Shown: in pieces, positions 5,723 to 62,800 of the stretch | How positions within the stretch are numbered: position 1 is the first letter of the stretch | Layout: the number at the start of each line of letters is the position of its first letter | NCBI GenBank assembly: GCA_032358255.1 | Contig: JAULBX010022409.1 | Coordinates: 1-64,000 of the forward strand | Direction: 5' to 3' | From: Heterotrichella gracilis | Taxonomy: Eukaryota; Sar; Xanthophyceae; Tribonematales; Xanthonemataceae | Length of the DNA stretch: 64,000 bases | Notes under the pieces: generated by a model | Seen by the model: the letters and a program-made list of their open reading frames with translations, nothing else | Told to the model about the DNA's origin: nothing | Databases searched by the model: none | Translations under genes and position numbers: made by a program

Positions 5723-8700
5723 TCACAGCGGCCACACGTACGCAGACGCAGCCCCCGCCACCCCCGGCACCTCCACCCGGTACAGCCCCCCCGCATGCTT
5801 GGCCCTGTCATCCAGCTTGCCAAACTCGCTCTCCCTGCGGGTGGTGACGTACAGGTGGCGCAAGCCTGGGCCCCCAAAGGTGCACGCAGTGGGGCGGTTG
5901 ATGGGGAGGGAAACCCTGCGGTGTTAGGGTTCTGTTAGGGTTTTTGCTACAGTGCTACAGTACAGGTGGCGCAGGCCTGGACCCCCAAAGGTGCACGCGG
6001 TGGGGCGGTTGATAGGGAGGGAAACCCTGCAGTGGTAGGGTTTGGTTAGGGTTTTTGCTTTTGGGGTGGCACAGGCCTGGAACCCAAATGGTGCACGCGG
6101 TGGGGCGGTTCACGGGGAGGGGAACCCTGCAGTTTTGAATTTGATTAGGGTTTTGTGTTACGGTATCATTGGTGCACGCGGGGGCGGATCATAGGGATGG
6201 ACACCCTGCAGCGTGAGGGTTATCAGTAGGGTTGTTTCCGATGGTACAGTGGGTGCAGGCTCAGCCCCACACAGGTGCACGCAGAAGTGCAACTCACGGA
6301 GTCCAAAACCATCCATGATATCCAGGCATCTGACCAGGGGGTCAACTGGGCCATGCAACTGCAATGACACGCGGCAGAAGTGCCCCAAATGACTATGATT
6401 TACTGCGCCACGTGCATCTTGTGTTTTTGCTCTGGTGCAGCAAAAGGCTCGCAAATGCATATGCAATTCACAAGTACAGAAAAGGGAGGTGGTGACCGCC
6501 TTGCATCCCCTGCGCACCTGTTGATTTCCTCCCCGTTTGTTGGGTTGTAACACACCACCGACCCGCTCTCCGCTAGGACCACCCACAGGTTGCCCTTGTT
6601 GTCAATGGTGATGCCATCTGGGGGGCCCGGCGAGGCAGGGGGGGTGACCACAGTCCTGCGGGAGGACAGGTTTTTCTTTAGTCCAAGGATTAGTACTCCA
6701 GGGATAAGGGATGTAGAGGTTAGGGTGTAGGGTACTGTGTATCTAGCTCATTGCCTTCGCCGCATCGATAGCAGTCCACGACATTCTTGGGTGGTTTGTA
6801 CTTGCCCTAGTCGGGCGAGCCTCACAAATGGAATGCCTCAAATGGAACGTGGCATGGGAATGGATGGAAGGTGTAGTATCCATTAAAGCAGCCTGCCCTG
6901 GCCCTGCGCACTGCTTGCACTGCATTGATGAAGACGGCAGCTGCCAGCCAGTTCTATGCCACATTTAGTTTGAGGCAACCAATGGGTGAAGCTCGAACCA
7001 GGACCTGAGCAAGTACAGCCCATCAGGCAATGACGCTAGCTTTCTGGCTCAGTTTTTTTCCCTTTCGCTTTTTCGATGCGGTGAAGGCAATAAGTAGCTA
7101 TAGGTGAGGTATCTGTATGAGGGTTTGTTTCTTGCTCATAATGATGAATCCTCCGGGCCACCCACCATCCCCCCCCCACACACAACTTGCAGTCAGGCTC
7201 CCTCCCTGCCAGCCCCCACCATCTCCAACCCACCTTGCAGCCGATGATACCCACGCCACCCCATCCCCACCCACTTACATCCACCTTGCAAGCAGGTCCC
7301 TCCCCACCCCATGCCTCACACCCCTTGCCAGCAAATTTCCCTCCCATGGCATCCCGACCCCCCACCGCCCCTAACAATATTGAAACAACCACGCCCCCCT
7401 TCCATCCCCACCTACCTTGCAATCAGCTTTCCCTCCCCGTCCCTGGCCATGGCCCCAGTGCCATCCACCTGGTACTCGGTGATGGTCCCCTTCCCAGTGT
7501 CGGCAAAATAAATCACCCCCTTGGCCTCGTCCCAGGCCATGCCGTTGGGCAGCGTCACCTCCCCAGGTCGCAGCACCTGCAGTGGTGGGCAGCATTTATG
7601 GACCCTAAATCCCTAGATCATATCCCAAATATCTTGGTCCCAGGCCATGCCGTTGGGCAGCGTCACCTCCCCAGGTCGCAGCACCTGCAGTGGCGGGGAC
7701 AGCATTTAGGGACCCTAAATCCCTAAATCATATCCCAAATATCTTGGTCCCAGGCCATGCCGTTGGGCAGCGTCACCTCCCCAGGTCGCAGCACCTGCAG
7801 TGGCGGGGACAGCATTTAGAGACCCTAAATCCCTACATCAGATCCCAAATCTCTTTGTCTCAGGCCATGCCATTGGGCAGCGTCACCTCACCAGGTCGCA
7901 GCACCTGCAGTCGAGGGTGGGGGCAGTGTTAGGGTTTATAGCTGTACCCTAAATCCCGTTCCAGACCATGCCGTTGGGCAGGACAGCCTCAGGGCCCAGG
8001 AGGGGATGAGGGAGACAAGTACAACTCAGGTTTAGGGGTTCACACAGCCAGGAATCCTTAATCCCTATAGGGTTTCACGCAGCCAAGGGGGTGGAGACCA
8101 GTTCACATTGGTGGTAAAAGGGTCAGTAGCACTCTGGGGGGAGTGTGCAAAGTCTCCGAATTATGTGGACCCTACAACTCCAAAACCCTGAATCTCTATA
8201 AGATTTTGGAATTGCAGGATCCACAAAAATTCCAGACATACCTCTAGGGGTTTAGGGTTATAAGCCTGTATTGCCCTAGCGTCTACCTGCTCCATCGTGT
8301 CTGGCTTGTCCGGCATCAGAGATTTGTGGACCCTACAACTCTAAAACCCTAAATCCCTATATGATTAAGGGTTAATAAAGCCTGTATTGCCCTAGCGTCT
8401 ACCTGCTCCATCGTGCCTGGCTTATCCGGCATCAGAGATTTGTGGACCCTACAACTCTAAAACCCTACATCCCTATATGATTAAGGTTTTATAAAGCCTG
8501 TATTGCCCTAGCGTCTACCTGCTCCATCGTGCCTGGCTTATCGAGCATCATTCTCAGAGATCTGTGGGACCCTACAAATCCAAACCCTAACCCTAAAGCT
8601 GCAGTGCCCTGACCCTTACCTGCTCCATCGTGTCTGGCTTGTCCGGCGTGAGTCGGTACAGGATGCCCTCCTCCCCGTCCCTCCAGGAGGTGTGCATCAA

Positions 8701-9967
8701 CCCCACTAGTAGGGTCCCCTGGGGCGACACCTTGCCGTCGTTGAAGCGCATGCTGCCGGGGTCACGCAGGTCGGCAGGGGGAACGCTGGCGATTACCCTG
8801 AAGAGCAGGAAATGGATAATTGGACATGGAGATTATAGCGCCCCACCTTCATGGACGAGAAATGTCCACAGACGCCAGTCTAGGTGGGAAACGCACAGGG
8901 CGATTTTTTGTCCCGGATCCTGACCCCAAACCCAGCCTAGGGTTTTGCTGCGCACGTCTACCTGGGTCTCTGCTCTCCCACAAAACCATTGGCCATAACC
9001 TAAACCCCAGCTTGGCATACGCGCATCAACGACGGTACCACACTGCCCTAGCCCAGGCCCTAGCATGGGGTTTTTGCCGCACCTGCCGACCTGCTTGCTG
9101 CTCACATCCAACAGTCTAGGAGGAGCGCACAGGGTCAACTAATTTTACCCCAATTCCTGACCCAAACCCTAGCATAGAGTTTTTGTCGCACCTGCCAACC
9201 TGCTTGCTGCTCACTTCCACCTCCATCACCTCGCTTTTGGTAGCCACCAGCAGCTTGTTGGGGTCGGATGTGGGTACTATGTTGGCTGCCACCTCGGGGA
9301 TGGTGATGGTGGTGTGCCTGGGGGGAGGGCAAGGGGGGAATGGGTCCATTCAGATGTGGGTATGATGGTGATGGTGGTGTGACTAGGCGGGGGCCAAGGG
9401 GGGGAGTGGGTCCATTCCGGTGTGGGTATGATGGTGATGGTGGCTGCAAGGTCAGGTATGGTGGTGTGCATGAAGTGGAGCTATGGAACTAGTTGGTGCT
9501 AGTTGTGAGTGCAGTGCATTTACACCCTGCGACGCAACCGGCATCACCCCAGTTTATTCCATGCAATTCCGCCCCTGCGGCGTACACCCAGCACCAGCTA
9601 TATTGCACCTACGTGTGTGCATCCATGAGAACAGCTATGTGCAAAACAATTAATTCAAAATTGGGCCTTCCTGTTACTCAAAAACACCCAATTTCTTCAT
9701 TATGCACTTTGCAACCTAAATGCCCACCAACTAGGTGCACCTCTCTGAGGACCACCACCCCAAACCCTTACGTGGGGTTTCTGCTGCACCCTACCTCTCT
9801 GTAGACCCTTCCTCAGCATCTGGTTGGAACACGTGGATGGTTTTCCCGTTAATATCCACAAAGTAGAGGCGCTGCGTTCGATCGTCCCACACAGGGCTTT
9901 CCCCTAAATCGCAGCCGCAGTCCAGCGCTAGTTGGACGGTGGCCTGGGCGGTGGGGGTGGCGGCCAT
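5723..9967 (-). CDS. SMP-30/gluconolactonase/regucalcin family protein, 322 aa
   Basis: Six exons on the minus strand: 9967-9795, 9317-9192, 8797-8620, 7576-7416, 6655-6518 and 5915-5723. All phases agree and give 322 residues, close to the roughly 300 of regucalcin. Family landmarks occur in order: LGESPVWDD with YFVDING in exon 1, PEVAANIVP in exon 2, RFNDGKVSPQG (metal-binding loop) and YRL in exon 3, LPNGMAWD with IYFADTG in exon 4, PDGITIDNKGNLWV in exon 5, and FGGPGLRHLYVTT near the end. This is a six-bladed propeller lactonase with a divalent metal site; its substrate cannot be read from sequence. No signal peptide is seen, so it is probably cytosolic. The introns between exons 2 and 6 carry tandem copies of exon edges, listed separately. 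The divergent neighbour is aspartyl protease A. Confidence 0.93.
5859..6215 (-). repeat. Tandem copies of the acceptor edge of SMP-30 exon 6
   Basis: The 5' edge of exon 6 (the reverse complement of the stretch containing GGTGCACGCAGTGGGGCGG and AAACCCTGC) recurs at about 5950-6030, 6065-6130 and 6170-6200, each followed by a TTAGGGTTT-type heptamer. Each copy keeps a potential CAG acceptor or a close variant. Only the copy adjoining the open frame at 5915 encodes the full last exon. Confidence 0.8.
7571..7990 (-). repeat. Tandem 108-110-bp units copying the acceptor edge of SMP-30 exon 4
   Basis: The block containing CAGGCCATGCCGTTGGGCAG and CAGCACCTGCAGTGG occurs in the true exon and again with CAGCACCTGC at 7679, 7789 and 7899, plus a decayed fragment near 7965. 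Spacing is 108, 110 and 110 bp. The spacer of each unit holds CCCTAAATCCCTA-type sequence. Each unit repeats the CAG acceptor and about 55 bases of coding sequence. Confidence 0.9.
8281..8640 (-). repeat. Tandem ~116-bp units copying the donor edge of SMP-30 exon 3
   Basis: The end of exon 3 with its splice donor (on the plus strand TACCTGCTCCATCGTG, then CTGGCTT.TCCGGC) is at 8619 and again at 8286, 8402 and 8518. Spacers contain CTCTAAAACCCTA and CCCTATATGATTAAG. Four donor sites therefore follow one exon. Confidence 0.9.
9060..9120 (-). repeat. Partial copy of the donor edge of SMP-30 exon 2
   Basis: The stretch GCACCTGCCGACCTGCTTGC at about 9081, with the intron sequence before it (CCTAGCATGGGGTTTTTG), duplicates 9169-9215 with few changes. 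The copy includes the splice donor and about 30 coding bases. Confidence 0.75.
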
Positions 9968-10868
9968 GGCGACGGGCTAGCTGTGGGGACAGAGGTGGAT
10001 TGTAGGGTTGGCTGGGGTTTTGTTTGGGGTGTGGATAGGGTTTGGTGCCTCCTGTGTGATGGTGTGGGGGGGAAGTGATAGGGTATGGGGTGTCCTGGGA
10101 GTGGGGTTGTAGGATGTTGCAGGGTTTGGAGGCGCAGGAACGTGTGTGTTGGCAGTCGAGTACCAGCCGTGCGGTGGCTTGCTACAGGCACAGAGGCGAG
10201 CTGTGGGGTTGAGTTACCAAAAGGGCTTCGTTAAGGGTGTGGGTAGGGGTTTTGTCGGTATGGATGGCCTGGGGAGTATAACTGTTTGAGGGGTGGGGTA
10301 TGTGTGTGTGGAGGGGGCGGGGGGGTTGGTGGGGGGGTCACTGGAGTGCGATTGGCAAGCTCAGGTGATCTGAGAACAGTTGCATTGCAGCTTTGCACAG
10401 ATGAGCTCACACTTAGGGTTTGTGGTTAAAAAAAGGAAGGTGTACAGGTGGCTGTTTGCTACCTTGCAAGGCTTGGTCTGTGCCTTGGACTGAGGGCTGG
10501 TTTGGTGTGTGGTGTGTGTGCTGTCCACTCGAGGGATATGGTGGGAATACGGTATTCTTGAGGCACACTTGAATGTAACCCGCGGTTTGCGATCTGACAA
10601 CAATACGGTGCACAACTGGACTCGCAAGTGGTGCAAAAATATGCCTTTAGTGAGGGTTGTGGCTTACCTTGCAAGGCCGCGGTATTCTTGGACACTCGGG
10701 TGCCTAGTGGGTCAGCTTCAGCACTGGTTCTCTGCGCCTACAGGGTGGTTGGGGCACAAGCAAAGTGGGGTGGGGTTCACAAGATGCGATACGGGTGTGT
10801 ACCACACGCTTTTATGCAACGCTCTGTTTAAAAAGAACGCAGCAGTTCGTGATGCTGCGTTGCCAAGG

Positions 10869-10879
10869 GGAATCGAACC
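10869..10879 (-). promoter_or_regulatory. Pol III B-box-like motif (tRNA-related remnant?)
   Basis: The reverse complement reads GGTTCGATTCC inside GTGGGTTCGATTCCCC, an exact match to the tRNA T-arm/B-box pattern. I could not build a full cloverleaf around it: the T-stem pairs poorly and no clean A box or anticodon arm is seen. It may be a decayed tRNA or the head of a tRNA-derived short element. A second match is at 12771-12781. Confidence 0.3.
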
Positions 10880-11508: not shown

Positions 11509-11518
11509 TTTATATACT
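11509..11518 (+). promoter_or_regulatory. TATA-like stretch just before protease A
   Basis: TTTATATACT sits about 10-18 bases before the ATG at 11527. That is too close for a normal TATA box serving this ATG unless the leader is nearly absent, so either it is not used or transcription starts elsewhere. Confidence 0.25.
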
Positions 11519-11526
11519 ATACGACC

Positions 11527-14500
11527 ATGGCGCGCCACCTGCAGACCTCAACGTTGCTGCTGCTCGTTTGGGTGGCACTGGGCGCGGTCAGTACATCTGT
11601 GATGGGACGTAACCTTACTAGCGCCCCGCCTGAAGGTATGGTTCCAGCTGCAGCGCACTGGTTCAACCTGACTTGGTGCCTTGGGTGGCAACGTGTGCAC
11701 TATTCCTTTATGGAGCCTGGCTGTGACACACCAGGCTGGACTATGAGCATGCCGCATTCGTTTGGGCCAGTGACGTCACATCTGCCGTCGGCATGCGGGC
11801 ACGATGATACTGCAATAAATAAACAAGAATTGAGCCGCAGAGAGGATTTATTGTAGTAATCATTTCCTGTGAACTTTCTGTTTTCTTTACCTGCAATCTG
11901 CACTGCAGTGTACACACTGCAGTGTACACACTGCCAATGTGCCCTGGGCTTGGTTGATTAGGCGCAAGGTAGTGTTAATATCATGCATCGGTGCTCAAAG
12001 CCAGGTGCACAACCTGGTTGTTGCTGTAGCACAAGGTACACCGTTAGCCAGGTGCCAAGTACTGAGAGTCGATGGTACATTAAATTTGGTGGATTATGCC
12101 CATTTGGTGCATGGTGTAGGGTTTAGGGTTTCAGGGTGACCCTCGAGTACAGGTTTGGTCACCATGAGGCCTGCGGACCACAGCCATGTATGGCAAAGCG
12201 CGCGGCAGGTTCAACGGCAGTTGAATCTGCCGCTATGCAGTACCGAGGTTGTTTCAGCTTTTCCAGTTTGCAGGGTCGCGACGTACCGCATGCGGACTCG
12301 TGTTTCTGCATAGCGACACTTGTGAAGCAGTGCAGTACGACGTTAGATAAAGCTTATGAACAGGAACACGAACTCACCAAACACCGTTAAATATTCGTGG
12401 TGTGCTAGCTTTTAACCGGAGTAAGACAGCAACTCGGGACTGGTTGGATGTGGGGATCGGGGATTCGCAAAATCGCGGATCATATATTTTTGGGCTGTTT
12501 TGGCCAGCGCGCGTCTGTCTAGGGGCGGCTAATATATAAATAAATAAATGCAATAAATAGATAAATACATGCAATAAATAAATACATAAATGCAATAAAT
12601 AAATAAATAAACAAATAAATAAATAAATGCAGCGCAAGTTGCGTGAAGTCAGGCACTCGTACCTAGGCACATAAGCAAGGGGTGTATGTCAGGCTCCTCG
12701 GTAATTCCATGTCCTTGCGTGCAGTTAGCTAACCCTAGGGTTTAGGGTTAGGGACTTAGGGTTTAGGGCTGGATTCGAACCATGGACCTCAACTTGGTTA
12801 ACAATGTTCTCGTTGCCGTGCCAGCTGGCAGCATGGTATTCCAGGTGGCCTACCACAAGCGTCCACTGCCCAAAGTGCCCATCCGTCAAAGTGGGGCCCG
12901 CTACTCCACTCTCTCAACCACACTCAACTTCAAGGCTGGGCCCAAGAGCTTGGGGTAAGGCCCAAGTGCACCCTCTGACCAAACCCTAAACTCTGTGCAC
13001 CATGTACCCAGCCCTTTTGACACAAACCCTAAACCCTGTGTAGGGTGTACACGATCGATATCAACGTGGGCACCCCGCCCCAGAAGCTGACTTCAGTGCT
13101 GGATACAGGGAGCCCGACCATCAACATGGCGTGCACCGGGTGCACCGGGGAGGGGTGTGCAGATGTAGGTGGAATAGGCGGGGCCTGGAAGGGAGAAAAA
13201 TCGTGCCCAAATGTGGTCTCTCGAATGTGCTTTGAAATGCACTTCCTGGCATTTATTTGTGGTGCAAGGAAGCAATGTTGTCTAGGGCTCCCACCTTCCC
13301 ATGCACTGCCCCTGTCTTTGCTAAAACCGCAACCCATGAACCCCAACTGTATACCCTAAACCCTAAACATACCATGCCGGCCAGCCTTCAACCAGTTCTT
13401 AAACCACCTACCCCCCTGAACCCCAACCCTAAACCCTAAACCCTAAACCCTAAACCCTAAACCCTAACCGAGTCATGCTGGCTCCTCGCAGCTGAAGCCA
13501 CTCTTTAACCCCTCCAAATCCACAACCAACTCGGGGCCTGCCAAGTGCGGCAGTGCCCCTTGCAAGGCGCTGTGCGGCTCCTCCGGCAAGTGCGAGAGCC
13601 GCAGCTATGTGCCGAGAGAGTGCATGGTGTCAGGCTGCGCCTGCGACAGCAAGAAGACCTGCCAAGTGACCAGTGCATACGGTGCGCAAGGGGGGGATCA
13701 TAAAAAACGGAACAGGTGGCAACGTTTCAGGGTTTAGGGTTTATGGCGTGGCTGCAAACTCTGTGCACATGTATGTAAGTGACTAGCAAAATCCGTGTTC
13801 AGGTTACCCGTGGGGCTTAGGGTTTAGGGATTAGGGTTTTACAGCCAGGTGTGTGCACCTGGGGCTCCAATTCACAGTGGGACAGCAACAACAACAAATG
13901 CTGTGTCCTTATCAGATTAATCCCATGCATTTCCTCGCTTGGCAACCAACAACTTTATGCCCTCCCCTCGTGGCTGCAGGGGACGATTCTGTCGCAATTG
14001 GCCCCGCAATGTCCGACATGGTCTCCTTCCCCCAGTTCCCCAAGTTTAAGCCCCAGCGCCTCACTTTTCACTGCGCCGCCTCAGCAGAGAACAGCATGTA
14101 CCAAGGCTCGGTCACCATGATGGCGGGGATAAGCTTCTCCCCTATTTCGCTCTTTGCACAGGTACGCTGCTGTGTTGGGATTCAGAGGAAACCGTGACCA
14201 GTAAGCTACTTATCAATATGTGAGCCAATCAACCATTGGGGTGTAATTCTGAAGGGGTGCTTGTTACTAAGGTTCCTGACTTATATTAGTATTTACCACC
14301 AAAATGGTATGTTTGTCCCCAAATCACATTTCCCTCCCCTTTTAAACCAACATCACTCATTTCCCACAGCTGGTGAGCTTGAAGCAAATCGACCCTGTGC
14401 TCCAAATATGCATCGGGGATGGGACATCCAAGGGAGGCCCAGGGACCGTAGTCTTGGGCAGTGCAGCCCCAAAAAACAAGTTCAAGTACAGCGTTGCCGC

Positions 14501-20700: not shown

Positions 20701-23700
20701 CTGCCAGGTGGTCTTGGCGGCCACAGACTTGTTGGTCTCGGCGGCAAACCAGGCCACCTGCTGGTCTCCCAGGATGTGGGAGTTGGGCAGGTTGCGCACG
20801 GCCTCGGTGGCGGTCTGTGGAGGGAGGAAATGGTTGATATTGGAAGTGGTAGGGGAAATAGCGGACAGGAGAGCAGCGCCTTTCTCGTGGCTAATTCTCC
20901 TTCATTACACAACGCGCCTGTTGAAGGATAGGCGGTGTAGCTATCTGTATTTGTACATTGGAGATCGAACCACTCTAAATCAGGATGAATTTAATCACCC
21001 TGGATTAAATTCACTTGCCGTCTGTGGAGTGAACACCAAACATGCTGCAGGTGGGGTCGGTATTATAGGCTAAACCTCAGGTTTAAACTTTCAACCCTAC
21101 AACCTAGCCACCCCAGTCCGCACCTTGATGGCCTGCATGGACGCCTCCTGGGTGGGGGTGAGGGTGAACGGTGTGGTGGAGGTGGGGTTGGCACCAAAGG
21201 CTGCTGATGCCACACCAATAACGCTGTTGAAGCCCTGGGTGGCATTGGCAAAGGTGCCGGGGTCCTGGGTACGGCCCTGCAGAGGGTTGAGGAAGTAGGG
21301 TTCATTGGAGTTATGGACAATGATTTATTGGGGTTACCTAGGGTATTGGGTAGGTTTAGGTGGGGTGTTTAATTTGGATGTTTTTGCAGCACGGGCTCCT
21401 GAGAGGAGTAGAGATTGAGTAAGGGGTAGATCAGGTTAGGACCTAGATTCGTTCCCCAGAGTAAACCCCCAGCCATGATGACACCAATATGGAAACAATG
21501 AACAAGTTGCAGTTTCTTATTTGGCGTTTGAGACAGTAACCGTTGTGTCCCCATGGTCTGCTTGTCAGACGCTAGGTGGTGGACTTCCTGACTTGCACAT
21601 GGATTGGTTTGCGGGTGTAACATTATGCGAGCGCTGGCGTTGCACGGACTTACCAACTTACAAGAGGTGGAATACATGTTTCATTTCACATAGAATGCCA
21701 ACAGCCAGTGACTAGGGCGTCGTTGCGTAGGGTTCACCGGGCCTGGGTTTAGGGTTTAAGGGTGACCCTAGGGTTTCTGTCCGCACCGTGACCCTGCCCT
21801 CTGCCATCATCAGGGTTGCAAGCTTGCCAAACTGGAAGGTGCGGTTGATCTTGGCACCGATGAAGGAGCCGTTCACGTAGCTCCTGATGGGCAGCCACTC
21901 GTGGTAGGCCTGGATGGCGTTGTTCTTGCGCACCTCCCAGTCACCCTCTGTAGGGTTGGGCAAGGGTTTGGTTAGGGTTTTGGGTGGGCGCAATTGGGTG
22001 TGGTTAGGGTCTGGATGGCAGCGGCCTTGCACAGGTCAATAAAGTATAATGTAAAATTGAGGTTTTCATGGGTGCGATAGAGTGGAATTAGGGTTGGATG
22101 GCAGCGGGACGCCGTGCCTTCCAGGTGCTCTCTGTAGGGTTTGGGCAAAGCATTAGGGTTTCTGGCGAGGTATTTGTGTTCACATGTGCGGTGGAGGAAT
22201 TAGGTTGTTGGCAAGGGCAGGGGTTTAGCAAGAGGCTCTAGTGTACTCAGTCAGAGTTCGGCAAGGGCTGGGGTTCAACAATGGTTTAGATGCGTACGCG
22301 CAGCACTGTTTAGGGTTTTGGCAAGGGGTTTCGTTGCGTACGTGTGGTGGAGTTGTGGTTCTCTGCGCCGTTCATGTACGCGTTGTTTGCAAACTCATGG
22401 TCATCCCAGATGGCAACCAGGGGGGACGCGGCGCTCAGAGCCTGCAGGAAGCAACTGTCACGATTACAATTGATCAAATGATTGATCACAAATGATTACA
22501 ACAGATCACACTCACAGATGGCAACCAGGGAGGTGTTGGCAGCAGAATTTGCATGTTGCAGTCACAACGATCACACTGAATCATCACATGAAGCAAGCGT
22601 GTGCAATCATGTGCAAGTATTTAGGTTTCCTAGGCAAATTTCCAGGGGTTTCATCTAGTTCTAAGGGCTCTTGTGCCTCACCTGCAGGCCTGCATCCTTG
22701 CGGTAGGTCGAGTAGCGCTGGCGGTAGTCGCTGAGGCTCACGATGTCAGTGGCGGGCTGCAGGCCTGCAAAATGGGATAATATTTTTTAAACGTTATTGA
22801 CTAAAAACCAACCAAGGTAGTCGCTGAGGCTCACTATGTCGTTGATCGGCTGCAGGCCTGGCAAAAGGGGTAGGATTTATTATTGATGGTCAGCCAAAAA
22901 ATATCATGTCAAGGTCAATGAGACAGCCCATGTTATGGGCGGGCTGCAGGGCCTGGCAAGAGGGGTGTCACAGTTTTCACAACTACATTCTTCTGTTCGA
23001 ATACTTTTGATATGCTTTGCCGGATCAAGGACGAGTTCCCGCTTGTGTGGAATGCATTGTAGATTATCGCAAACCGTTAAAGCCTCATAGGAACCATGGC
23101 CGTGGCCTAGAAAAGCGATGCGCTTGCGGATCGCTTTTCTAGGCCACGACTAAGGTTTTTATGAGGCCACGACCATGGTGCGGGCATACACAGACTATAG
23201 TATATATCTGATTGTATCACGTATGATAAAGGTCGGCACCAGCATGCATGATGCATGCACGTGTAATGCACACTGCTGCTTTCCGTAATCTAAGTACTTA
23301 GTTACGCATCTGCAAATTCATTATATTAACTCATTATTGTACAAATAACAATTACTGGTAGGCGACAACAAGAAAATCTGGAGGGTGTTGTATATATGCT
23401 CACCCAGTGGTGCCTCAGCGTACCGCCCTGCCTGCTGTGGTGAAGGGTAGGAGTTGACGCCATACTCATACACCTGCACACAACGGGTGGGAGGTGAGGA
23501 CAAGCCAAGCCAGGGGCCCCATGTGGCATATGCGGCACTGTATACTTTGCCCGACAAGAGAATGGTGCTAGTGTGCTTTAGGTGTGCAGGGAGTATGGTT
23601 CCATGTCCCTGGAATAGGGGCTCATGTGACAACACAACACTGATGACTGATGCAGCACTGGTGACGCGGCACGACAGCGTCACTAGTAGAGTTGTCATGG

Positions 23701-28232: not shown

Positions 28233-31200
28233 ATGGTATCCATATTAAGTATCTTGAACGGAGGCTTGTTCTTTTCTGCCACTCCCATCGCATCTCGTGC
28301 TCGCATCTCGTGCGCCCGTTGTCCCGTGCATATACGAGGTTCCCACTGCCCCCGCGTTGTTAAACCAACTCCAAATAGCTGTTACGTGTCAGTCTCGAAG
28401 CCGCTGGCACAGGTGTCCGCGGTCCGGGCCCCCAACTCTACTTCAAGAGTCACCTTGCCAAACCAGTCCCTGAGATCACTATTGAATACGCCTTTTCAAC
28501 GCTGTTTCAAGGAACAGCCTACCTACGATGGCCCTGATCTCGTGTAATACCCCGCATCCCCCGTTGCACCGCTTGCCGTGACCCCCCGGTTGACCAGGAT
28601 TTGGCCCCGGTTTATTTCCGCCTTTTCAAAAAAACCACCGTGCATGTGAGCGTCATGGTGCGGTTCCACTGGCACGTGGAGAATGGCTTCAGCGCCTTTG
28701 TACCCCCAGGCTCCTTCGTGCTGCACAAAGACAGCACGGTTCGCAACGCACAGGTGGACATAGAGGTGAGGCCCGCCCCACACCCACCTCCCCCTCCACT
28801 TGGGGGGGGGTGTTCAGCTCCGCAGTAGAAGTTCCACCCCAACACCAAGCAGAAGTAATTTAACACAAAGCCGGAAGCTGGTAGTTGGTCCTGCATAACG
28901 ATGGTATACAACTGGGGCTTTGTGGTATTGACCGCAAGGGTGCTGCACGCCAGTTTGCACGCCGCCGTGCCTGGTCTGCCCTTGCCACCATACCAGACCT
29001 GGCCCTATACCCTAAAGAGTAAACACTAAACAGTGCGACTGCTGTCGCATGACCATCAGGCAGTTTGGTGACCATCAGGCATCAGGGTTCCTCCCAACCT
29101 ACTTCCGCTCACAGCATATCGTACACCCCCTGCTTACAGATTCCCGGCCAGAATGAGCCCACTGCCTCCCTGCTCAACCTGCCACCAAACTTCATGCAGG
29201 AGGACAAGGTAAGGGTGTGTGCATGCTGGGGGAAGCCCTAGGGAGGGTTTCAAGTTGGGTGGTGTGCACAATCTGTGAGAAACCCTTGGAGAAATGCCTG
29301 ATGGCATATGGTGATAGGGAGTGAGCACTACCACGCCCCAACCCCACCCACATCCGCGACACCTGCCCAGCACCGCCCGCATCCGCTGCACCTACCTAGC
29401 AGCGCTCATGACTCTGCCTCTCTCTGCATGCGATGCCACTCCATGAGTCCACGTGACCCCGTGCAAACCAACCCCCCCCCTCCCCACAGGTCCAGTTTAT
29501 CGGTGTGGTAATCGCGCATGGCAACAGCTCCCTGGACTGGAAGGGCAAGCTGCTCACGGAGCTGGCGGTGGCGCTGGCCTCGCAAGGTGAGGGGCAGTAC
29601 CCCTAGGGTTTTGGTAGGAAAACCCTTAGGGTTCGTACTGAGTGGTACCTGGAGGGCAAGCTGCGCATAGTGCTGGCGGTGGCGCTGGCGTCGCAAGGTG
29701 AGGGGCATGATTCCTTAGGGTTTTGGTGGGGACAGGGAAAACCCTAAGGGTTATATACCCACCTGGAAGGGCAAGCTGCGGATTGAGCTGGCGGTGGCGC
29801 TGGCCTCGCAAGGTGAGGGGCATTACCCCTTAAGGTTTTGGTGGTGACAGGGAAAACCCTTAGGGTATCATGCCCACCTGGAAGGGCAAGCTGCGCATTG
29901 AGCTGGCGGTGGCGCTGGCCTCACAAGGTATCATGAATCACCCTTCGGGGTTTGAGGGATTAGGGGAAATTCTTGGCCACCTTGGCCGCTGATACCCTTA
30001 ACCCTTCATTCCACCCCTTCCTCCCCCAGGGTACCTTGTGATGCGCTACCAGTGCGCACAGAAGGAGCAGCGGAGGCAGCGCATGTACGAAAAGGCGCTG
30101 GATGCGTGCGCCACCTCGCCCTTCGCCAGGGGGGTGGACAGGTGGCTGCTCATAGGTGCGTGGGGGGTTTCGTGGGTTCAAACCTTTGACAGGGACCAGC
30201 GGCTGTTAAAAGTGGTGGACGGGATGCAGCGGTGGTGGTGGTGGTTTTGTGTGGTGGTGGTGCATCTATGAGAAGGGTTACTTGCATATGCCACCTCGGC
30301 CTTTGACAGGGAGTTGTAAATAGGTGGCAGGTAATAGGTGGTCGGTGGCTGTGTGATGAGACATGTAGGGCGGTTGGGACAGGGCGATGGGAAGTGGTCC
30401 CTGAAAATTGACCCCAGGCACATCCCTAAACTATTCCATTTGCTATGCCCTACAATAAACCCTCCCTTGCACCTGACACCCTCCCCTCCCTTGTGGAGGC
30501 GCCTACAAGGAACCCTATCGCTGAACCATATGACACCCCCTCTTCCTCTCGTGCGCAGGCCATGGCAGTGGGGGCCGGGTGGCGTCGGTGGTGGGGTCCC
30601 GCTGCCGGGGAGTGGTGGCGGGCTACTGCCTACTGTCATACCCCTTGGAGGTGAGCAGGGGGAGAAATGTACTGGGTTGGGTGCATCACACCAAGGTGTG
30701 CATTGTACTTATGGACAATGCAGTGTGTGTAGCCGCACCTTTTCCCGCTTTTGCATGCAGTTGGTGTATTACAAACTAAAAATGGCCATCCCTTTCCATG
30801 ACCCGAAACCGGATCCCTGCCCCCCCCAGGAGCCGATGCCCATCATGAGCAAGAGCAAGAAGAACAAGGAGGAGGAGCGGGTCACGCATCTGCCTGACTC
30901 GGTGAGGAAAACCTTAGAACATGAGCCCTGTGGTTTGTTGCTTTAAACCCTATGTTGCTTTAATTAAACCCTAAACACTACACCGTACTAGAAAATAGGG
31001 GAGAGGAGCGCGTCACGCACCTGCAGACTCGGTTTCCTCACCCTTAACCCTACATCCTGAACCAGAAGGCTTTGTGGGCAAAAGTGTAAACCTTGACATG
31101 AATGGGGTCCCGCGGGCAGGCAAAAGGGTGGTACACCTATTAATCCCGGTGCATGGAGTCCTAAAATCTGCACACTGCTTACTGGGGGCGACCTAATAAG

Positions 31201-48076: not shown

Positions 48077-51075
48077 ATGAAACCAGCATATCAGGCAGCG
48101 AAAGCATGCACCCGCCTGTTCCTCTGCGGGGATGTCATGACCGGGCGAGGGGTGGACCAGATCCTTCCCCACCCCAGCAAACCCCACCTGTACGAAAGCC
48201 ACGTCAAAGACGCTCGAGTCTACGTGTATCTCGCTGAGAAGAGGAACGGGCCCATCCCCAGGTCCGTTTCCTGGAGCTATATATGGGGGTCCGCGCTGGA
48301 TGTGCTCGATGGCTCCCAGGTGGGTCTAATAGGGAGGGCATAGGTTTGATACTTTGCGCAGGCCCAGTGCTTGCTTCCCACCGAGTCCTGGATGTTTCAT
48401 GTTTCAAGTATCTCCTTGGTCCCCTGCTCAAACTGCTCCTGCACTTACTCAGCGCATTGTTCAAGACCCTGTCACTTGATAACCCTATAGTACCCTAAAC
48501 CCTAAATTGCTTTCCTCAGTGTCCATAACGTTCTCAGGTGCTTTTGGTAGCTACCTGCAGGTACACAAACCTAAACCCCAAATGTTGAACCCTAAATCCA
48601 TTCCTGCATGTTGTTTTCAGGCGGACTCTCGGGTGATAAACCTGGCGAACAGCAACGACAAGGGCATCACTACGGCATGCACCCAGCCATTGTGCCGTGC
48701 ATGAACTATCATGGGTTGCCCCTTGCAACTGCACTCGTCATGCGGCGCAAACCTTAAATCGTAAACCCTAACCGTGAACTCCAAACTCCTTCTTCAGGTG
48801 GACTACCGGGTGATCAATCTGGAGACCCGCGTCACAAGCGAGGCAGCCTGGCCTCACAAGGGCATACTGTACCGCAAACACTACCGCAGAAACTATCGCA
48901 TACACCCAGCCAACGTGCTGTGCATGCCCGTAGGTGACGCCTTGCAGGTGCATGCACAACCCTTAAACCCTCAACCTAAACTTCAAACTCCTTGTTCAGG
49001 TGGACTACCGGGTGATTAACCTGGAGACCAGCGTCACAACAAGCGAGGCGGCGTGGCCCGACAAGGGCATCCAGTACCGCATGCACCCAGCCAACGTGCC
49101 GTGCCTCACGGCTGCGGCAGTGGACTGCTGCGTGCTAGCCAACAACCACGTGCTGGACTGGGGGCGCAGGGGGCTGGTGGAAACCCTAGAAACCCTACAG
49201 GGAGTGGGCATAGCCACCGCCGGCGCCGGCAGGAACGCACTGGAAGCAGGTAATACTCATAATTACTTAGTAATTTACAGGGCATGTAATGACCCATCTT
49301 GACGAGGCTAGGCTTTTCTATGTGTCTGGCAAGAGGAGCAATGGTGCGTGCTAGCCAACAACCATGTGCTGTCCTGGGGGCTGGAAGGAACTGCCAGAAC
49401 TCATGTCACAGGTGGGAAGTCAGGTCAGAAATGTGCCCCGCCAGCAGGGTCCCCAGTTCTGCAAAAGCATGACAATGCCCCGCTGGCCCACGTTTCCTAT
49501 GCCATGCCCAGCAGCGGGGTATTTGGGAGGGAAAAAGCATCCATGCTCATATAAGGGGGGAAATATGGAAATGTATCATGATTTTTAGGGCTGTTTACAA
49601 GCTGGCTGCTCACAACTGCTGTTATCTTATTTTCCAAATTTGTTGGAGGTCCACAAATAATTCATCACCTGGCTGTAGTGCCAACCCCCTCGTCATTCAA
49701 TGTCCACACATGCCCACCTACTAGGGTCTCGGCAGTTCTTCACAAGACTGGCAAGGCCCCTGTGGCCCTCCTGGCCTACGCCATGCCCAGCAGCAGGGTA
49801 CCCAGGAGGAAATTGGTATTATACATAGAAAATCACTTCAATTGTATCATGATTTTTTAGGCCTTTTTAAGCTGGCTACTCACCTGGCTGTACTGCCAAC
49901 TTCATGCCGCTAAATGTCCATATGTACCCCTTGCCAGGGTCTCCAACAATTCTGCACAAGCCCGGCAAGGCCCCTGTGGCCCTCCTGGCCTATGGCATGC
50001 CCAGCAGCGGGGTGCCGTACAAGTGGGAGGCGGGCGCCAAATCCCCAGGGGTCAACTTGCTCCCCAACCTGTCCCCAGCTTCGCTTGCGAGGGTGGTGGA
50101 AGACATTCGGTGCTGTAGGGAGGAGCACTCGTCCAACAGGTGCAGGTTGTGCACTCCGATGGATGCATGGCTTTTCTCCCCCCTTTCTCGTTGAATATTT
50201 CTTGTTTTTTATTCATTTTATTTGCAGAAAATCAATTCCAAGCATTTTTCTCTGGAATCACCCACATGCTTGGCCGCCCTATTTACTGGGAGGGAACTGA
50301 AGCGTAATGATGCCCCCCTGCTTGCAGCTCTGGACCCATCCTGATCGTGTCCATCCACTGGGGTGGGAACTGGGGCTATGACGTCACACACAGGGAGCGC
50401 CAGTTTGCGCATGCGCTCATAGACGCAGGGGCACAAATCGTCCACGGCCACTCCTCGCACCACCCAAAGCAGGTATTTTTATTGGTTTTCATTCTTGACA
50501 TCGATATGTATCTGCAAGCTTGGTTTTGCCAAAACGGTCATGCACAAGTATGTATTCACCAAAGATAATGGATCATAACCCAATAACAAGGAAAGCCAGG
50601 GCTGTGCTGCTGGATATATTTTTTCCCCCTATATATTATTACTCAAAGCCTGTAAATCTACAGTAATGTACCTTGGCTGAATTTGTACCAATCAACATAG
50701 GTGGAGGGCTACAAGGGGGGTGTGATACTGTACGGGTGCGGGGACTTCATCAACGACTACGAGGGCATACGAGGGCACGAGGAGTATCGCAGTGAGCTGA
50801 CGTACGCGTACTTGGTGGAGTGTTATGCGGATGCTGGAGGGGAGGAAGAGGGGGGAGAAGGAACAGGTGGACGAGGGGGAGAGTATGGTGCGGGGGAGGA
50901 GGAGGGGGAGGGGGAAAAAAGGGAGGCAGGCCCCTCCACAGAGGCAGGGGGGGGCAAAGGGTGGCAGTGCGAGGTGGTGGCTGTGCCCATGCGCATGTTC
51001 CGCCTGCGCCTGCAGAGGGCGAGTGAGGAGGAGGCGGAGTGGCTCCGGGGCAGTGTGGGGGAAGGGGTGGGATGA
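48077..51075 (+). CDS. CapA-family (PGA_cap) metallophosphatase, 404 aa
   Basis: Five exons: 48077-48319, 49000-49249, 49938-50139, 50328-50472, 50701-51075; phases agree and give 404 residues. Motifs of the CapA/PgsA calcineurin-like family appear in order: LCGDVMTGRGVDQ, VINLETSVT, ANNHVLDWG, IVSIHWGGNWGY, VHGHSSHHPKQ and ILYGCGDFINDYEG. The metal ligands Asp, Asn, His are all present. In bacteria CapA acts in poly-gamma-glutamate capsule export; eukaryotic homologues have no settled role. The last exon inserts a 35-residue Gly/Glu tract before the final strand. No clear signal peptide follows ATG 48077; the frame stays open upstream to 47831, so an earlier start or a further 5' exon is possible. 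Bacterial origin by transfer is plausible but the gene now has four introns. Confidence 0.9.
48621..49045 (+). repeat. Tandem copies of the acceptor edge of CapA exon 2
   Basis: GTGGACTACCGGGTGAT after a TTCAG acceptor is real at 49000 and copied at 48799 (with GAGGCAGCCTGGCC following) and, more diverged, at 48621 (GCGGACTCTCGGGTGATAAA). Spacing is about 178 and 201 bp. Spacers hold AACCCTAAA-type sequence. Confidence 0.9.
49336..49400 (+). repeat. Intronic copy of an internal part of CapA exon 2
   Basis: GTGCGTGCTAGCCAACAACC, CATGTGCTG and CTGGGGGCTGGAAGGAA copy 49126-49185, which includes the metal-binding NNH motif. The copy is not adjacent to a good splice site. Confidence 0.8.
49441..50010 (+). 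repeat. Three tandem copies of the acceptor edge of CapA exon 3
   Basis: After an AG, GGTCTCCAACAATTCTGC (real, 49938) is copied at 49448 (GGTCCCCAGTTCTGC) and 49725 (GGTCTCGGCAGTTCTTC). All continue through GCCATGCCCAGCAGC.GGGT. The two copies then break off into AT-rich intron. Confidence 0.9.
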
Positions 51076-57800: not shown

Positions 57801-58787
57801 GTGGCTGTGCGGCAGGTATGTCAACCCTTAGAAAGGGTCGTGCCTCATTGGCCCCGTCGCCACTGACCCTAGTGGAGGGCTTGGCCGCTTCGCCAGAAAC
57901 CCTCTGCAAGGGTTTAGCTGCTCCATCCCCGCTGACCCTAGAGGAGGGTTTGGCTGCTTCAACATGGACCTTAGGCAAGGGTTTGCCTGCCTCGTTGGGA
58001 GACTTAGAGGAGGCTCTGGGCTGGTCCAAAGCTGCGGGTGCCTTGGCTGCCTCGACATCCGCAGACTTGGCTCGCTTGGAGGCATGGGCTTGGGGCTCGG
58101 GGGCAGCCCGCTTCTTGACGGCATCGGAGGAAGTACCGGGTTCGGTTGGCGGCTGGGGCTGCGCAGGGGATGGTGCTGGTAGTGTGGCTGGCGGTGGCGC
58201 TGCTGCGGCTGCGGCTGTGGCTGCGGCTGGTGGTGGTGCGGATGTGGCTGCTTTTGGGGCGGTGGTGCGTGTTGGTGGCAGGGCCTGCACAGGTGGAGTA
58301 GCAAGGTGTAATATCACAAGGACAACGCAAGGAGGGTAGGTAATGCCCCAAGACGAGTTGTGCTATCTGGCATCCCTAGACGTCAAACTCCCTAGACCCA
58401 CGCCTTGCCTAGGTAAACTGGATACCCAGTGCGACAACACATATCACTATGTCAGTAGCGTAATCCTATGCTGTTCAAAGGTTGGTTCCTGCGGGTGAAT
58501 AGGTACTGGAGTAGATGTACCTGTTAGGCCTGTACCTTGTGGCAGGGTGGGGTTGACTGGTCTAGGCGACCGTGGCTACACAATGCCTCATGACCACTTA
58601 CTAGTAAAAAGCAGTTCTGAAATTCCACCCACCTTCAAGTTGATACTAGCTAGTTATCCACCGAACCACCAAAAATCGGCCAGCCCTCTATTCGTACCTT
58701 GGCTGTGGGTTTGGGGGGCGCAGTAAGCGCCTTTTGCAGCAAGTGACTGTACGACAGAAGCTGGGACAGCTCCTCCAAGTAGTTCAT
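51877..58787 (-). CDS. Very long Pro/Ala-rich ankyrin-repeat protein, about 1651 aa
   Basis: Minus-strand exons: 58787-58698, 58284-57768, 57551-53720, 53338-53186, 52925-52837, 52407-52217, 51960-51877; phases agree, 1651 residues. Exon 1 begins MNYLEELSQLL. The next part is Ala/Pro/Ser/Lys-rich with a basic KKRAAPEPQ...KRAKS patch that could be a nuclear signal. The 3.8-kb exon has degenerate ankyrin repeats (GVTPLLAAVRTRS, LVLAAIKYNHPAIVDML, VVAALVEAGADG, AVERLLATGV, AVEQLLHAGAGVDEV) and then about 600 residues of Pro/Ala-rich linker. The last exons have clear ankyrin repeats: CTLLHHAVQTP, AGETPLLLCAGKE, GKTPLMLAAG, GRTALMHAQ, LLLDAGADPRVKDGQGRTAADIA. It is presumably a scaffold; no enzymatic domain is seen. 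The intron 57552-57767 is 216 bases and stop-free in frame. The family is not recognised beyond ankyrin. Confidence 0.87.
57552..57767 (-). other. Exitron-like intron inside the ankyrin gene
   Basis: The segment has a good donor (GCAG|GTACTT), a pyrimidine-rich tract and a CCGCAG acceptor, but it is 216 bases long (72 codons) and reads through without a stop. Retention would add 72 residues with unlike composition (Cys, Tyr, Phe, Leu) to an Ala/Pro-rich protein, so splicing is the more likely default. Confidence 0.65.
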
Positions 58788-59823
58788 CGTACCGTCAAGG
58801 GTTGAACCCGCACCATTAGGGGCCTAATAGTACAGACGGCGAGGTCCTAGGCGAGATGGTTGCCACCACTGCCATATGCATGCATTGTGAGACTGGAGCT
58901 TGATTTACATAAGGCTTTTGCAGAGTGAATGCAGTGGAAAATAGAACAACGTGGCTATCTTTGTTTACTGTGGGTGTATCAGGTCGGCGTCAAGGTATTC
59001 GAGGCAAACGTTTGGTGTTTGCAAGAGGCGTCCACGGAAAATAAATGGATTTCTGTGCAAGTAAAAAGGCTTATTTTGAGTAGACACATAAACACTAGTT
59101 TTCAAACCCTTCTGCATACGATCCTGGGTCAATAAAGCGATGCTGGACCCGTTGATCGTACTACGGGACAGGGTTGATTATCCCTGGTGTGTTTGGACAC
59201 CTGAGTCTTGTTCGGTGCAAGCCATCGATTACGTTCTCACCCACGCCCATCCACACTGAAGAAACTGAGGTAAAGGCCAATAGCGCCTCCTGTCTGAGGG
59301 ATTTAAAGCCTTTTCTCGATCGACACTTGTGGAGAAGGGTTTGTCTTTCCTCCAGGTACGAATCAGCAACGCATGCATATTCGTTCGAGTGGCCATGGTT
59401 AGGCCTGGGTCATGACCATTGATCGAAGATGACAGGGCTTCGAGGCGCGTGGGTGTCGCAGAGCGAGCTTAAGCATGTGGGATCTGGACGGGTGCAAGTT
59501 TCTGTCGCCTTGTCCGCTCTTTAACGGCGAAATCTTCAGGTTACGTTGCCGATGTGCCCAAAAGAGCAGTCCTGGCCCTCGGCTCCCATATACCTGTACT
59601 AGCCATAAAACCTGCACCATTATGGCTTTAAATCGCACTAAATACATTCCCCACCTTGGCCAACACCCATGGCACACTCCAAGCTTGTATTGTGTTGCAT
59701 CCAGGCAGTTGTGATGAGCAAATGGGCTTTAAAACTGCATCTAAGGCGTGTTTGAGCTGTCTGCACTTGGCGCGCAGGAGATCCCCCCTGCTGGGTGTGA
59801 TGAAGGGGTGAAGCACCAGTAAT
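58788..59823. promoter_or_regulatory. Divergent promoter region, ankyrin and AT-hook/DDT genes
   Basis: About 1 kb between two opposed start codons. Both promoters should lie here. No TATA box at a convincing distance and no gene were seen. Confidence 0.4.
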
Positions 59824-62800
59824 ATGGAGGAAGGGGATACAGGTGGTGGGGTCAACCCAGAGCCACCCATCAAGCGTGGCAGGGGGCGTCCACCCAAAAG
59901 GAAACCACCACCACCAGCAGCAGCACCAGCAGCAGCAGCAGCAGCAGTACCCACAGCCGCAGCCACACCCGCAGCCGCAGTCAGCAGCCCCGATGGCGAC
60001 CCCACCCAACTCCCCAATTCTTCTGAGTTCAAGAGAGGCCCCGGCAGACCCAGGAAAAATGCCTTGCCGCTTCCCCGCCAGGAAACCACCGCCACGCCCA
60101 CGCCAGAAATTGCAAAAAGGCGGGGCCGGCCCCCGGGATCCAAGAACAAACCCTCCCTTCTGAGACTGAAACAGTCAAACCTGGGGCAGCCAGGGCCCAG
60201 CTTAACTGCATCTGGCAAGCGCAGGGGTAGGCCACCCAAGAACAGCAATGCGCTTCCACCCAGCAATCTTTTCACGGGGGGTGGCAGGGGTTCCAGGGGG
60301 GGCAGACAAGGCGCCTCCGGTGGTTTCAGGGGGAGAACGCTCATGGGGAGAAGGGGAGGTAGCGGCAAGGGGAGGGAGAAGCCTCGTGGAAGGGCTCCCG
60401 CAAGGGTTGTGGGTCCAGGTGGGTGATTTCTCAGCGGCCTTTTTTAATCAATTTTTGGCCCAGCTTGGGGATTCATGATCCTCACCTGGGGATGCTTTAA
60501 ATCCTGCCTGCCCTACCCCTGCACGCGAGGACAACTTATTCTCTACATACCCTGAAACCTCCATTTTTGGAGTGGTTTATGGCATTTTACATTGCCGCGG
60601 CGCATACCCTTATGATGTCCTGTAATATGGAGCACCCAATGCACTATAAACTTTTATAGTTTTAATAATAAAATCATGTCAATCATGTCAACCATGTGCC
60701 TTTATTTATGCTGCTGCTTATTTCCCGTCCATAGACCTTGTTATATTATATTAAAAAATACGATTATTAAATCGTTTTTCCTTGCACTCCAGGTGGGGGT
60801 GACAGCTCCTCGGGGGAAGAATCCTCAAGCGATGAAGAAGAGGAGGACGAGGAGGAAATGTTGGTAGAGGTGGAATCAGAGGACGAGCAGGACACGCCTG
60901 AGCGCCCCGGCAGGGGGGGTGGCAGGGGCGGCAGCAAGGGGCCCAAGGCGCGGGGGCGAAGGCGGCGGGGGCGGCGGCGGGCGGGGGAGTCCTCGGATGG
61001 TGGCAGCGGGGAGGACGGGGCTGGTGGTGGGGTGGAGCTATTGGCGGATGTGGCTGGTGGTGGGGAGGGTGGCAACTCCAGTGGAGGAGATTCAGGTGCG
61101 CTGTGGTGTGGGTAGTACAGGGAGGTGATGTTGCAGTGGCGCATGGGGTGGTTGATCCTGAACACGGCTTGACGCGCCATGTCTGACTATTCCTCTACTC
61201 CATACCCCACATCGGTTTGCTCGCTCCTCCCAATTGTGTGCGTGGTTGCAGCATCAACCACATTTACTTCCACCCCCCACCATCCACCAGCTCTCATGAG
61301 CTCACCACCCTACTTTCAACACCCCCCTCCTCCCCCTTGCAGATGATGAGGGTGGGGAACGCCCACCTCCCGTGGACCTGAACCCTGCGTCCTCCAGAAT
61401 TGCTTCCACCGTGGCCATTGATCGCCCCAACAAGCCACCCCTGGTGGTGTCATCGGAGGCCATAGGTGGGTGGGTGGGGTGTGGCTGGGGGTTGGGAGAG
61501 GACAGGGATATGGAGAGGAAGTGCGGGCATGTAGGTAGCATGGTCATTTGGTGCCGCGAGCCATGAGTAATTGAAGTACTCCATGATAATCTTGACCACC
61601 AGCTTATTACGCGCACCACTGATTCATTCACCACAGACCCATCATGCCCATCGTCACATGACCATCACGAATCACTTGGAATCATAACGCCCATTCAACA
61701 GGACACTATATTCGGGTTGTCGGGTTGACATCTCTTGTGAGTGGGCGCGCTGTGACGTGAAGGTCACGTGCATGCAATGAGTACCACGGTCACACACGTG
61801 CATGGTCAACGTCGAGGAGTGTGCCCATGTGGTGGCCAGGGACGTGGTCATGAACCACTACCCCCAAATCTTGATAATCATTTTGCATACCGAGACACAG
61901 AAATGTTACACAGAAATACCTACCATCCTCTGTACCCACAGGCGATGCCATGACCGCATATGCCACTCTGCACGCCTTCTCATGGCAGCTGAGGCACTCC
62001 CCTTGCATTTTTCGGGACCTGTGCCTAGCGCTGTTTAGCCAAAGCTCTACACTCTTAACTTCTTATGTTTACATTTTACATACATATGCTACCAATGTTG
62101 TACCTCCCCCCCTCACACCCACACCCACACACCCACCAAACCCTGTCAACCCGTGCAGGCGACGCCATGACCGCCTACGCCATCCTGCGCGCCTTCTCCT
62201 GGCAGCTACGACTCTCCCCCTGCACTTTCCGGGACTTGTGCCTTGCGCTGTTCAGCTCCCAGTCAAGCTCCCTGGTGGACGAGGTGCATGTGTGCGTGCT
62301 GCGTGCGCTTGCGTGTGATGAAGACAAGGATTTGAGGGCGGATAGGGAGCTGGACTTGGGGCTGCTGGATGGGGTGACGTGGCCTGAGTATGTGTGGGAG
62401 TGGCTGCGGTTGAGAGGTGGGTGGCAGTGGTGGGTGGTGGTGGTCGGGTGGTGTGATCAGAGCAATTGCATAGAATCATATTTTTTATCATGAATTGTAA
62501 CCCATGATGCATTTGCTACTTGTAGAGTTTGGCCAAAAAACAGTAATAGTATGATTGTGCGGACTTTGGTGGCAGGCACAGTGATGATTGGTGTCAACCA
62601 TGATGATTGCTGTCTCAATTATGCATTGGTTGCATCATGGTCTCCCTCCATGTTGCACTGATATCCCTTTTGCTGGTGCACAGAGGAGAATGTGCTCTCC
62701 CGGTACCAGTGGGCGGTGCAAGCACAGCCACCTCCACCACCACCAGCCGCCAACCCCCCACCACCGGCACTACAACCAGCACCAGCACCAGCAGCTCCGG

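Follow-up and report, generated by a model that had tools for sequence, protein, structure and literature searches.

Several introns in a 64,000-nt stretch of the Heterotrichella gracilis genome (in contig C226; hereafter the window) carry copies of the edges of their own exons, often next to telomere-like CCCTAAA/TTTAGGG heptamers, which raises the question of what process would place them there. A sequence-only reading of the window proposed that a genome-wide process, distinct from ordinary microsatellite growth, acts on exon–intron junctions, that the duplications survive only if one intact splice site is left, and that many alternative or decoy splice sites result. In this study, we examined a larger sample of the assembly and found that the pattern of exon-edge copies is genuine and common in it. 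The explanation that we favor, with a probability of about 0.6, is frequent local tandem duplication that is filtered by selection and by visibility, the heptamer-rich DNA close to splice sites being a likely hotspot.

Frequency of exon-edge copies

The sample consisted of the window, 200 kb of contig C2, and 50 kb of contig C46, which together make 314 kb, or about 0.5% of the 68.5-Mb assembly (903 contigs). A Viterbi gene finder trained on this 314-kb sample gave 59 genes, 57 of which were multi-exon; exon borders throughout are predictions from these models, trained on the same sample, and are not RNA-derived. The proteins of 7 of the 12 window gene models were submitted to a Pfam search, and all seven were recognized (SGL, TAXi_N/Asp for both proteases, PhoD, Abhydrolase_11, PGA_cap, and DDT). 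This result supports the exon structures of these genes and agrees with the names given to them in the sequence-only reading, namely, SMP-30, aspartyl proteases, PhoD, TEX30/KANL3-type, CapA-like, and DDT. Duplications were detected by an ungapped self-comparison using 32-nt windows with at least 27 matches and offsets of 28–450. Splice edges were tested with exon sequence alone as the anchor; exons shorter than 31 nt were dropped, and 15 predicted short exons inside duplications were relabeled as copies before counting. Low-complexity windows were filtered out of the self-comparison, the splice-edge test, and the corresponding test of coding sequence (CDS) ends. Computational collapse of the arrays ahead of gene finding was dropped, and the windowed self-comparison was used in its place, because the borders set by Tandem Repeats Finder (TRF) often removed the splice site from the retained unit.

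Self-comparison revealed local duplications at all eleven arrays located in the first reading (5859, 7571, 8281, 14708, 29570, 34131, 36786, 37650, 48621, 49441, and 61944). For two of these arrays (14708 and 49441), the cluster began 17–43 nt later, and the missing part was recovered by alignment. TRF alone detected seven of the eleven and missed 14708, 48621, 49441, and 61944. Across the sample, 63 of 674 splice-site edges (about one in eleven) had a copy in their own adjacent intron, comprising 38 of 335 donors and 25 of 339 acceptors, and 32 of the 57 multi-exon genes contained at least one such copy. The copies extended past the window, as had been supposed, with 41 of 431 edges affected in C2 and 9 of 106 in C46, compared with 13 of 136 in the window itself. 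When each edge was compared with the intron of one other junction, belonging to another gene, 2 of 674 edges matched, and exon interiors lying 64–152 nt from a junction had a copy in 9 of 364 cases. The real 314 kb produced 5,045 window hits and one set of block-wise Markov shuffles produced none; this difference, together with that between own and foreign introns, excludes chance. The affected edges showed no excess variance between genes (p = 0.19). Middle introns had edge copies more often (55 of 488 edges) than first (3 of 98) or last introns (5 of 87), a difference to which gene-end errors of the models may contribute.

Cover by the self-comparison was lowest for intergenic bases (0.56%) and highest at exon edges (9.9%); it reached 4.3% in exon interiors, 5.4% at intron edges, and 8.9% in intron interiors, the last being the class in which the exon copies themselves sit. 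None of 5,000 circular label shifts reached the observed intergenic depletion or the enrichment of exon edges and intron interiors. Among 100 duplication clusters, 76 included exon and intron sequence, 12 were intron-only, 6 were exon-only, 4 were intergenic, and 2 were of other types. A real junction was aligned with its copy in 69 of the 100 clusters, two of them with just 1–2 nt of exon, and the distance from copy to original was 40–225 nt in 67 of these 69 cases.

Structure and decay of the copies

The intron part of the unit was also similar in 44 of the 69 cases (Smith–Waterman z > 4, splice consensus included), as tandem duplication predicts. The copies were 77–93% identical to their originals. 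Both splice-site bases were identical in 46 of 63 copies (29 of 38 donors and 17 of 25 acceptors), the adjacent exon base pairs, which were unused in detection, were identical in 39–42, and intron pairs 3–4, 5–6, and 7–8 were identical in 35, 31, and 24, respectively. The retention of the splice pair does not clearly point to selection on the copy, because the original splice site itself cannot vary, and the suggestion that the copies are maintained as decoy splice sites was not borne out by these counts. Distances from copy to original gave 20, 21, and 28 cases in the three classes modulo 3, showing no frame preference, and a whole exon was copied in 1 of the 69 cases, in a doubtful gene model.

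Introns with a copy were longer (median 480 nt) than those without (294 nt), and their median fell to 314 nt once the unit was subtracted. With one extra unit counted per recognized copy, the duplications account for 8.3% of the sampled intron length. It is very improbable that the arrays are collapsed or expanded repeats introduced by the assembly: the copies have diverged from their originals, periods vary by array, many arrays consist of two diverged copies, and some arrays are common to separate paralogs.

Telomere-like heptamers in introns

TTTAGGG is the plant-type telomere repeat. Counted as CCCTAA/AAACCCT and their reverse complements, heptamers occupied 32 bases per kb in introns, 6.6 in intergenic DNA, and 2.9 in exons (reversed controls, 3–6), so that introns exceeded intergenic DNA about fivefold. 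They peaked within 60 nt of both splice sites and showed a second rise at 105–150 nt, which fits the duplication unit. Heptamers were present in 50 of 61 introns with a copy and in 135 of 297 without (odds ratio 5.5), and the odds ratio was 4.3 in introns of 250–700 nt. The association with the copies that had been noted for the array spacers was thus upheld, but heptamers were not always present, 24 of the 69 edge clusters having none. The CCCTAA sense predominated in the 60 nt next to 3' splice sites (50 vs 23 introns); near 5' splice sites, both orientations were found (53 and 57 introns). CTNAC-like words and CCCTAA both peaked 15–60 nt upstream of acceptors. An interpretation of the heptamers purely as branch sites leaves the near-equal orientation counts near donors unexplained.

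The heptamers might also have been added by telomerase, or by capture of telomere repeats, at genic breaks, after which the broken end would be joined to the sister copy to give the order exon edge, heptamers, exon edge. At C2:89655, a 34-nt heptamer spacer lies between two exon-edge copies and no heptamer was seen in about 150 nt after the second copy, suggesting that heptamers filled the joint in this case. Heptamer cover was also higher between copies than in the outer flank (0.152 vs 0.110, Wilcoxon p = 0.014, 58 of the 69 cases, the other 11 having been left out because they were too short or lay on the opposite side), and telomeric repeat insertion at double-strand breaks is documented in mammals in the accessible text of a study of interstitial telomeric sequences (PMC7215372). 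The outer flanks were nevertheless almost as heptamer-rich as the spacers, which indicates that most heptamers were duplicated with the unit rather than added during the event, and a role purely as joint filler is weakly supported. Moreover, the CCCTAA bias near 3' splice sites is explained equally well by splicing constraint, and the human insertions described in the same text are not biased toward introns. We therefore regard telomere capture as a rather unlikely general origin of the arrays.

Selection, visibility, and the preference for coding borders

Copies were also found at coding borders without a splice site. Four of 48 stop-codon edges, all four in C2, had a copy similar in size range to those at splice edges, and these were seen directly at distances of 56, 101, 114, and 245 nt downstream. 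A single start-codon edge of 43 had a copy, and that one was of low complexity. Overall, 5 of 91 CDS ends and 63 of 673 splice edges had a copy (Fisher p = 0.32, with small n). These results argue against splice sites as such being the target. They agree with the survival rule put forward in the sequence-only reading, in that copies occurred at splice sites and stop codons, where one intact copy is left, and no clean one occurred at start codons.

Under the explanation that we favor, local tandem duplications of about 40–225 nt would arise when replication slips, when the template is switched, or when ends of sister copies are joined. A duplication within a coding exon would be purged and one over the start codon would place a false start upstream, whereas one straddling a splice site or a stop codon would leave an intact edge and survive. 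The copy would then decay much like neutral sequence. Because the original coding edge is conserved, a junction copy should be recognizable for longer than a duplication in mid-intron. Heptamer-rich intron DNA near splice sites would probably act as a hotspot, and heptamers may sometimes be added at the joint.

Several observations weigh against this explanation. Because the conserved coding edge keeps old copies visible, we ran an age-matched test based on intron-to-intron similarity only, the expectation being random placement with each cluster's own offset. Among units of at least 60 nt, 11 clusters straddled a junction and 3 did not (P = 0.003, against a mean expected junction share of 0.41). 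Removal of a 38-nt array that had been counted at double its unit, and of three clusters whose match was confined to a multiple or odd offset, left a stricter set of 8 vs 2 (expected 0.31, P = 0.002). This excess means that chance and visibility leave something unexplained. Furthermore, the exon part of the unit was 20–70 nt in 55 of the 69 cases, a range whose lower limit, but not its upper limit, is partly set by detection, and it did not increase with unit length (Kolmogorov–Smirnov p = 3e-7, 57 of 69 cases); this lack of scaling with the unit is unlike the prediction of random placement. Heptamers were missing from 24 of the 69 edge clusters, as noted above, and from 7 of the 14 at a distance of 190–230. 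The splice pair was kept slightly better than its exon neighbors, which would allow for weak constraint. Finally, array introns could be aligned between two diverged proteases, as described in the next section, a result for which simple neutral decay is insufficient.

Units shorter than 60 nt in the age-matched test (11 intron-only and 1 junction) matched the placement expectation, and the different behavior of the longer units is not that of ordinary microsatellite growth, as had been argued from the sequence, nor that of minisatellite growth, in which short-unit arrays would form irrespective of gene parts. Equal rates of duplication in mid-intron sequence had been named in advance as the outcome that would speak against targeting, and under age matching such equality was not observed. 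There is, accordingly, a residual preference for coding borders, which rests on few events. It could arise if duplication were aimed at exon–intron junctions, with transcription, R-loops, or splice-proximal heptamers triggering breaks or template switches and with the exonic breakpoint usually 20–70 nt into the exon. The age-matched excess, the narrow range of exonic breakpoints whatever the unit length, the heptamer peak close to splice sites, and the far lower cover of intergenic than of intron-interior bases all favor such aiming. On the other hand, stop edges, which have no splice site, were hit at a similar rate, about a third of the edge clusters lacked a heptamer, and the age-matched sample comprised 14 clusters. 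Junction targeting is, in our judgment, possible but doubtful, and local duplication filtered by selection and visibility is preferred.

Aspartyl protease paralogs and a possible function of the copies

The two aspartyl proteases of the window, P1 and P2, share 64% amino acid identity, a fourfold identity of 0.65, and seven comparable introns. Alignment succeeded for three P1/P2 intron pairs (z 8.6, 15.5, and 10.9), in each of which P1, P2, or both have an array, and failed for the other four (z 0.4–1.8), in two of which only P2 has a copy. Part of the similarity between the array introns is exon-derived and inflates their alignments. The aligned stretch of the exon-7 intron includes about 75 nt between donor and copy that are not exon-derived. 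A third paralog, P3 (locus L039, C325:22424-25693), has its own set of exon-edge copies. The exon-7 donor edge was copied in all three paralogs (z 4.9, which is weak, in P1; 23.6 in P2; and 6.6 in P3). P3 had no clear copy of the exon-6 acceptor (z 2.5) and had acceptor copies for exons 3 and 5 (z 14.3 and 12.3) that were found in neither P1 nor P2; donor copies for exons 3 and 4 were found in P2 and not in P1, in a comparison of these two genes. Judged from these comparisons, some protease copies are old and either kept or re-made, others are recent, and some are lineage-specific. The aligned array introns of P1 and P2 suggest constraint, conversion, or recurrence.

If constraint were the cause, a function might explain why the copies are retained: they could act as decoy or regulatory splice sites or form cassettes for unproductive splicing; heptamer runs would, by their sequence, hold stop codons in every frame. 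The alignment of the array introns, the exon-7 donor copy present in all three paralogs, and the slightly better preservation of the splice pair are consistent with this idea. However, the splice-pair difference is small and the original site is invariable, the distances show no frame preference, and the copies of stop codons have no splicing role; we consider a maintained function improbable. As a whole, the sequence-only interpretation held with respect to extension beyond the window, growth unlike that of microsatellites, the survival rule, and the association with heptamers, and was not supported with respect to splice sites as the target as such and to maintained decoys.

Features of the window

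The arrays of the window and the stop-edge copies of C2 are listed in Table 1. The PhoD copy, which had been named at first without a coordinate, was seen by alignment and was not among the self-comparison clusters. In the PGA_cap gene, the gene finder modeled one copy (48798-48947) as an exon. In the SMP-30 gene, three edge copies on the minus strand (7667-7684, 7777-7794, and 7887-7904) were spliced by the gene finder as in-frame 18-nt mini-exons encoding VLRPGE-type repeats; if real, these would represent intron gain out of the array.

Table 1. Exon-edge copies and associated features. Positions refer to the window unless a contig is given; "additional" marks features outside the initial set of arrays.
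Gene or feature	Position	Strand	Description
SMP-30 gene	5845..6213	-	Tandem acceptor + exon-start copies, exon 5723-5915, unit 111, CCCTAAC heptamers between
SMP-30 gene	7521..7920	-	3.5 copies of acceptor + initial part (about 50 nt) of exon 7416-7576; unit 110, 95% matches
SMP-30 gene	8155..8655	-	Exon-end + donor copies, exon 8620-8797, unit 116
SMP-30 gene	9052..9218	-	Donor-edge copy, exon 9192-9317, distance 109; additional
SMP-30 gene	9302..9436	-	Acceptor-edge copy, exon 9192-9317, distance 65-66; additional
Aspartyl protease P1, CCCTAAA run	13414..13467	+	7.9 tandem heptamers, intronic, just upstream of acceptor 13492
Aspartyl protease P1	14708..14945	+	Two degenerate acceptor + exon-start copies, real exon 14886-15032, heptamers at joints
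Aspartyl protease P1	15544..15760	+	Intron after exon 7, weak donor-edge copy (z 4.9); aligns with P2 array intron
PhoD gene	22682..22857	-	Real exon start; copy at 22816-22857 (42 aligned nt), 93 nt upstream
Alpha/beta hydrolase gene (TEX30/KANL3-type in the first reading)	29535..29933	+	3.5 exon-end + donor copies, exon 29490-29586, unit 115, AGGGTTTT/AAAACCCT between
Aspartyl protease P2	34123..34339	+	5.2 copies of a 40-nt unit: heptamers + acceptor + few nt of exon start, exon 34322-34442
Aspartyl protease P2	34779..34962	+	Donor-edge copy, exon 34647-34824, distance 127; additional; not found at matching P1 junction
Aspartyl protease P2	35520..35786	+	Donor-edge copy, exon 35439-35623, distance 206; additional; not found at matching P1 junction
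Aspartyl protease P2	36793..37042	+	2.7 copies of acceptor + initial part (about 58 nt) of exon 36985-37140; unit 93; heptamers begin at exonic joint
Aspartyl protease P2	37633..37961	+	Exon-end + donor copies, exon 37510-37674, unit about 110-114
CapA-like (PGA_cap) gene	48614..49109	+	Acceptor + exon-start copies in steps of about 200 nt, upstream of exon 49000-49249
PGA_cap gene	49120..49383	+	Exon-to-intron duplication, offset 216; additional
PGA_cap gene	49441..50017	+	Start of exon 49938-50139 copied twice, in steps of about 214 nt and more
DDT gene	61939..62257	+	Copy of acceptor + initial part (about 98 nt) of exon 62159-62416; distance 217; span holds one heptamer-type word
Stop-edge tandem copies in 3' flanks of predicted genes	C2 about 180,427, 220,794, 260,338, 270,421	-	Coding end with stop region

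Three further features of the window were recorded. A 14-nt unit (ACACCCCGCAAGAT) is repeated 12.4 times at 44762-44934, with 92% matches, inside a predicted intron. On the minus strand, an open frame of 1,548 residues with proline/alanine-rich stretches (53716-58362) overlaps two exons of a predicted seven-exon gene, and an open frame on the plus strand at 520-1032 presumably resembles a scavenger receptor cysteine-rich domain.

Comparison with known systems

Taken as a unit that has the junction inside it, boundary-crossing tandem duplication describes the 69 junction-aligned clusters, including the 44 with a similar intron part. The closest published case that we found is such a duplication in a single potato gene; the scale and the link to heptamers are new. 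In the potato RdRp gene, according to the accessible text, a tandem duplication spans an intron's 3' part together with the 5' part of the exon that follows, an acceptor-type unit like those of the present arrays, and an 83-bp tandem duplication lies within the first intron (PMC4974935). The potato example concerns one gene and a new spliced intron backed by RNA reads (PMC4974935, same text), whereas here about 9% of the sampled edges are affected, the copies are intronic in most gene models, donors are copied as well as acceptors, and heptamers are often present. A short literature search that took in few subscription journals found no published description of genome-wide exon-edge copies with telomere-like repeats.

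The AGGT model of intron gain likewise involves short, local, genic tandem duplication that copies splice-like sequence. In the partial account available of that model, an exonic segment is duplicated and the sequence between two AGGT copies becomes an intron, whereas the units described here straddle an existing junction inside a longer intron. Intron birth of the AGGT type was rejected, since 64 of the 69 copies lie 117–942 nt from the other splice site and not one intron length off; the five remaining cases, in which the copy sits on the opposite side or past the intron, are atypical and uninformative in this position test.

Mammalian interstitial telomeric sequences are also short telomere-type runs inside chromosomes, sometimes with flanking duplication: in the part of the source available, 3 of 66 horse loci had a duplication alone and 2 more had other changes too, and 31% of the human sequences were intronic, as random placement expects (PMC7215372). 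The intron-weighted heptamer densities found here depart from this human pattern. Mutually exclusive exons arise, as do the present copies, from tandem duplication of exon sequence and adjacent intron, but the accessible text on them describes clustered duplicates of which one is included in the mRNA (PMC6071210), and here the copies are partial edges that decay. The near absence of whole-exon copies and the distribution of distances modulo 3 speak against exons of this kind. Introner elements are the same intron sequence dispersed across many genes. As far as edge copies are concerned, they were rejected as an explanation on the 2 of 674 edges that matched in one other junction's intron.

Significance

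The origin and growth of introns are still debated on the basis of a small number of examples. Boundary-crossing duplication is frequent enough here for its birth, decay, and loss to be measured in one genome, and this genome would allow testing whether splice-proximal telomere-type repeats raise the duplication rate. Exon-edge copies also require an age-matched control before splice sites are named as the target. We tentatively suggest that introns in this genome may lengthen chiefly because their own exon edges are copied into them in tandem, with splice-proximal heptamers as the seeds and with older copies having decayed beyond recognition. If so, exon-edge copying would furnish introns with preformed splice signals and could contribute to intron gain genome-wide.

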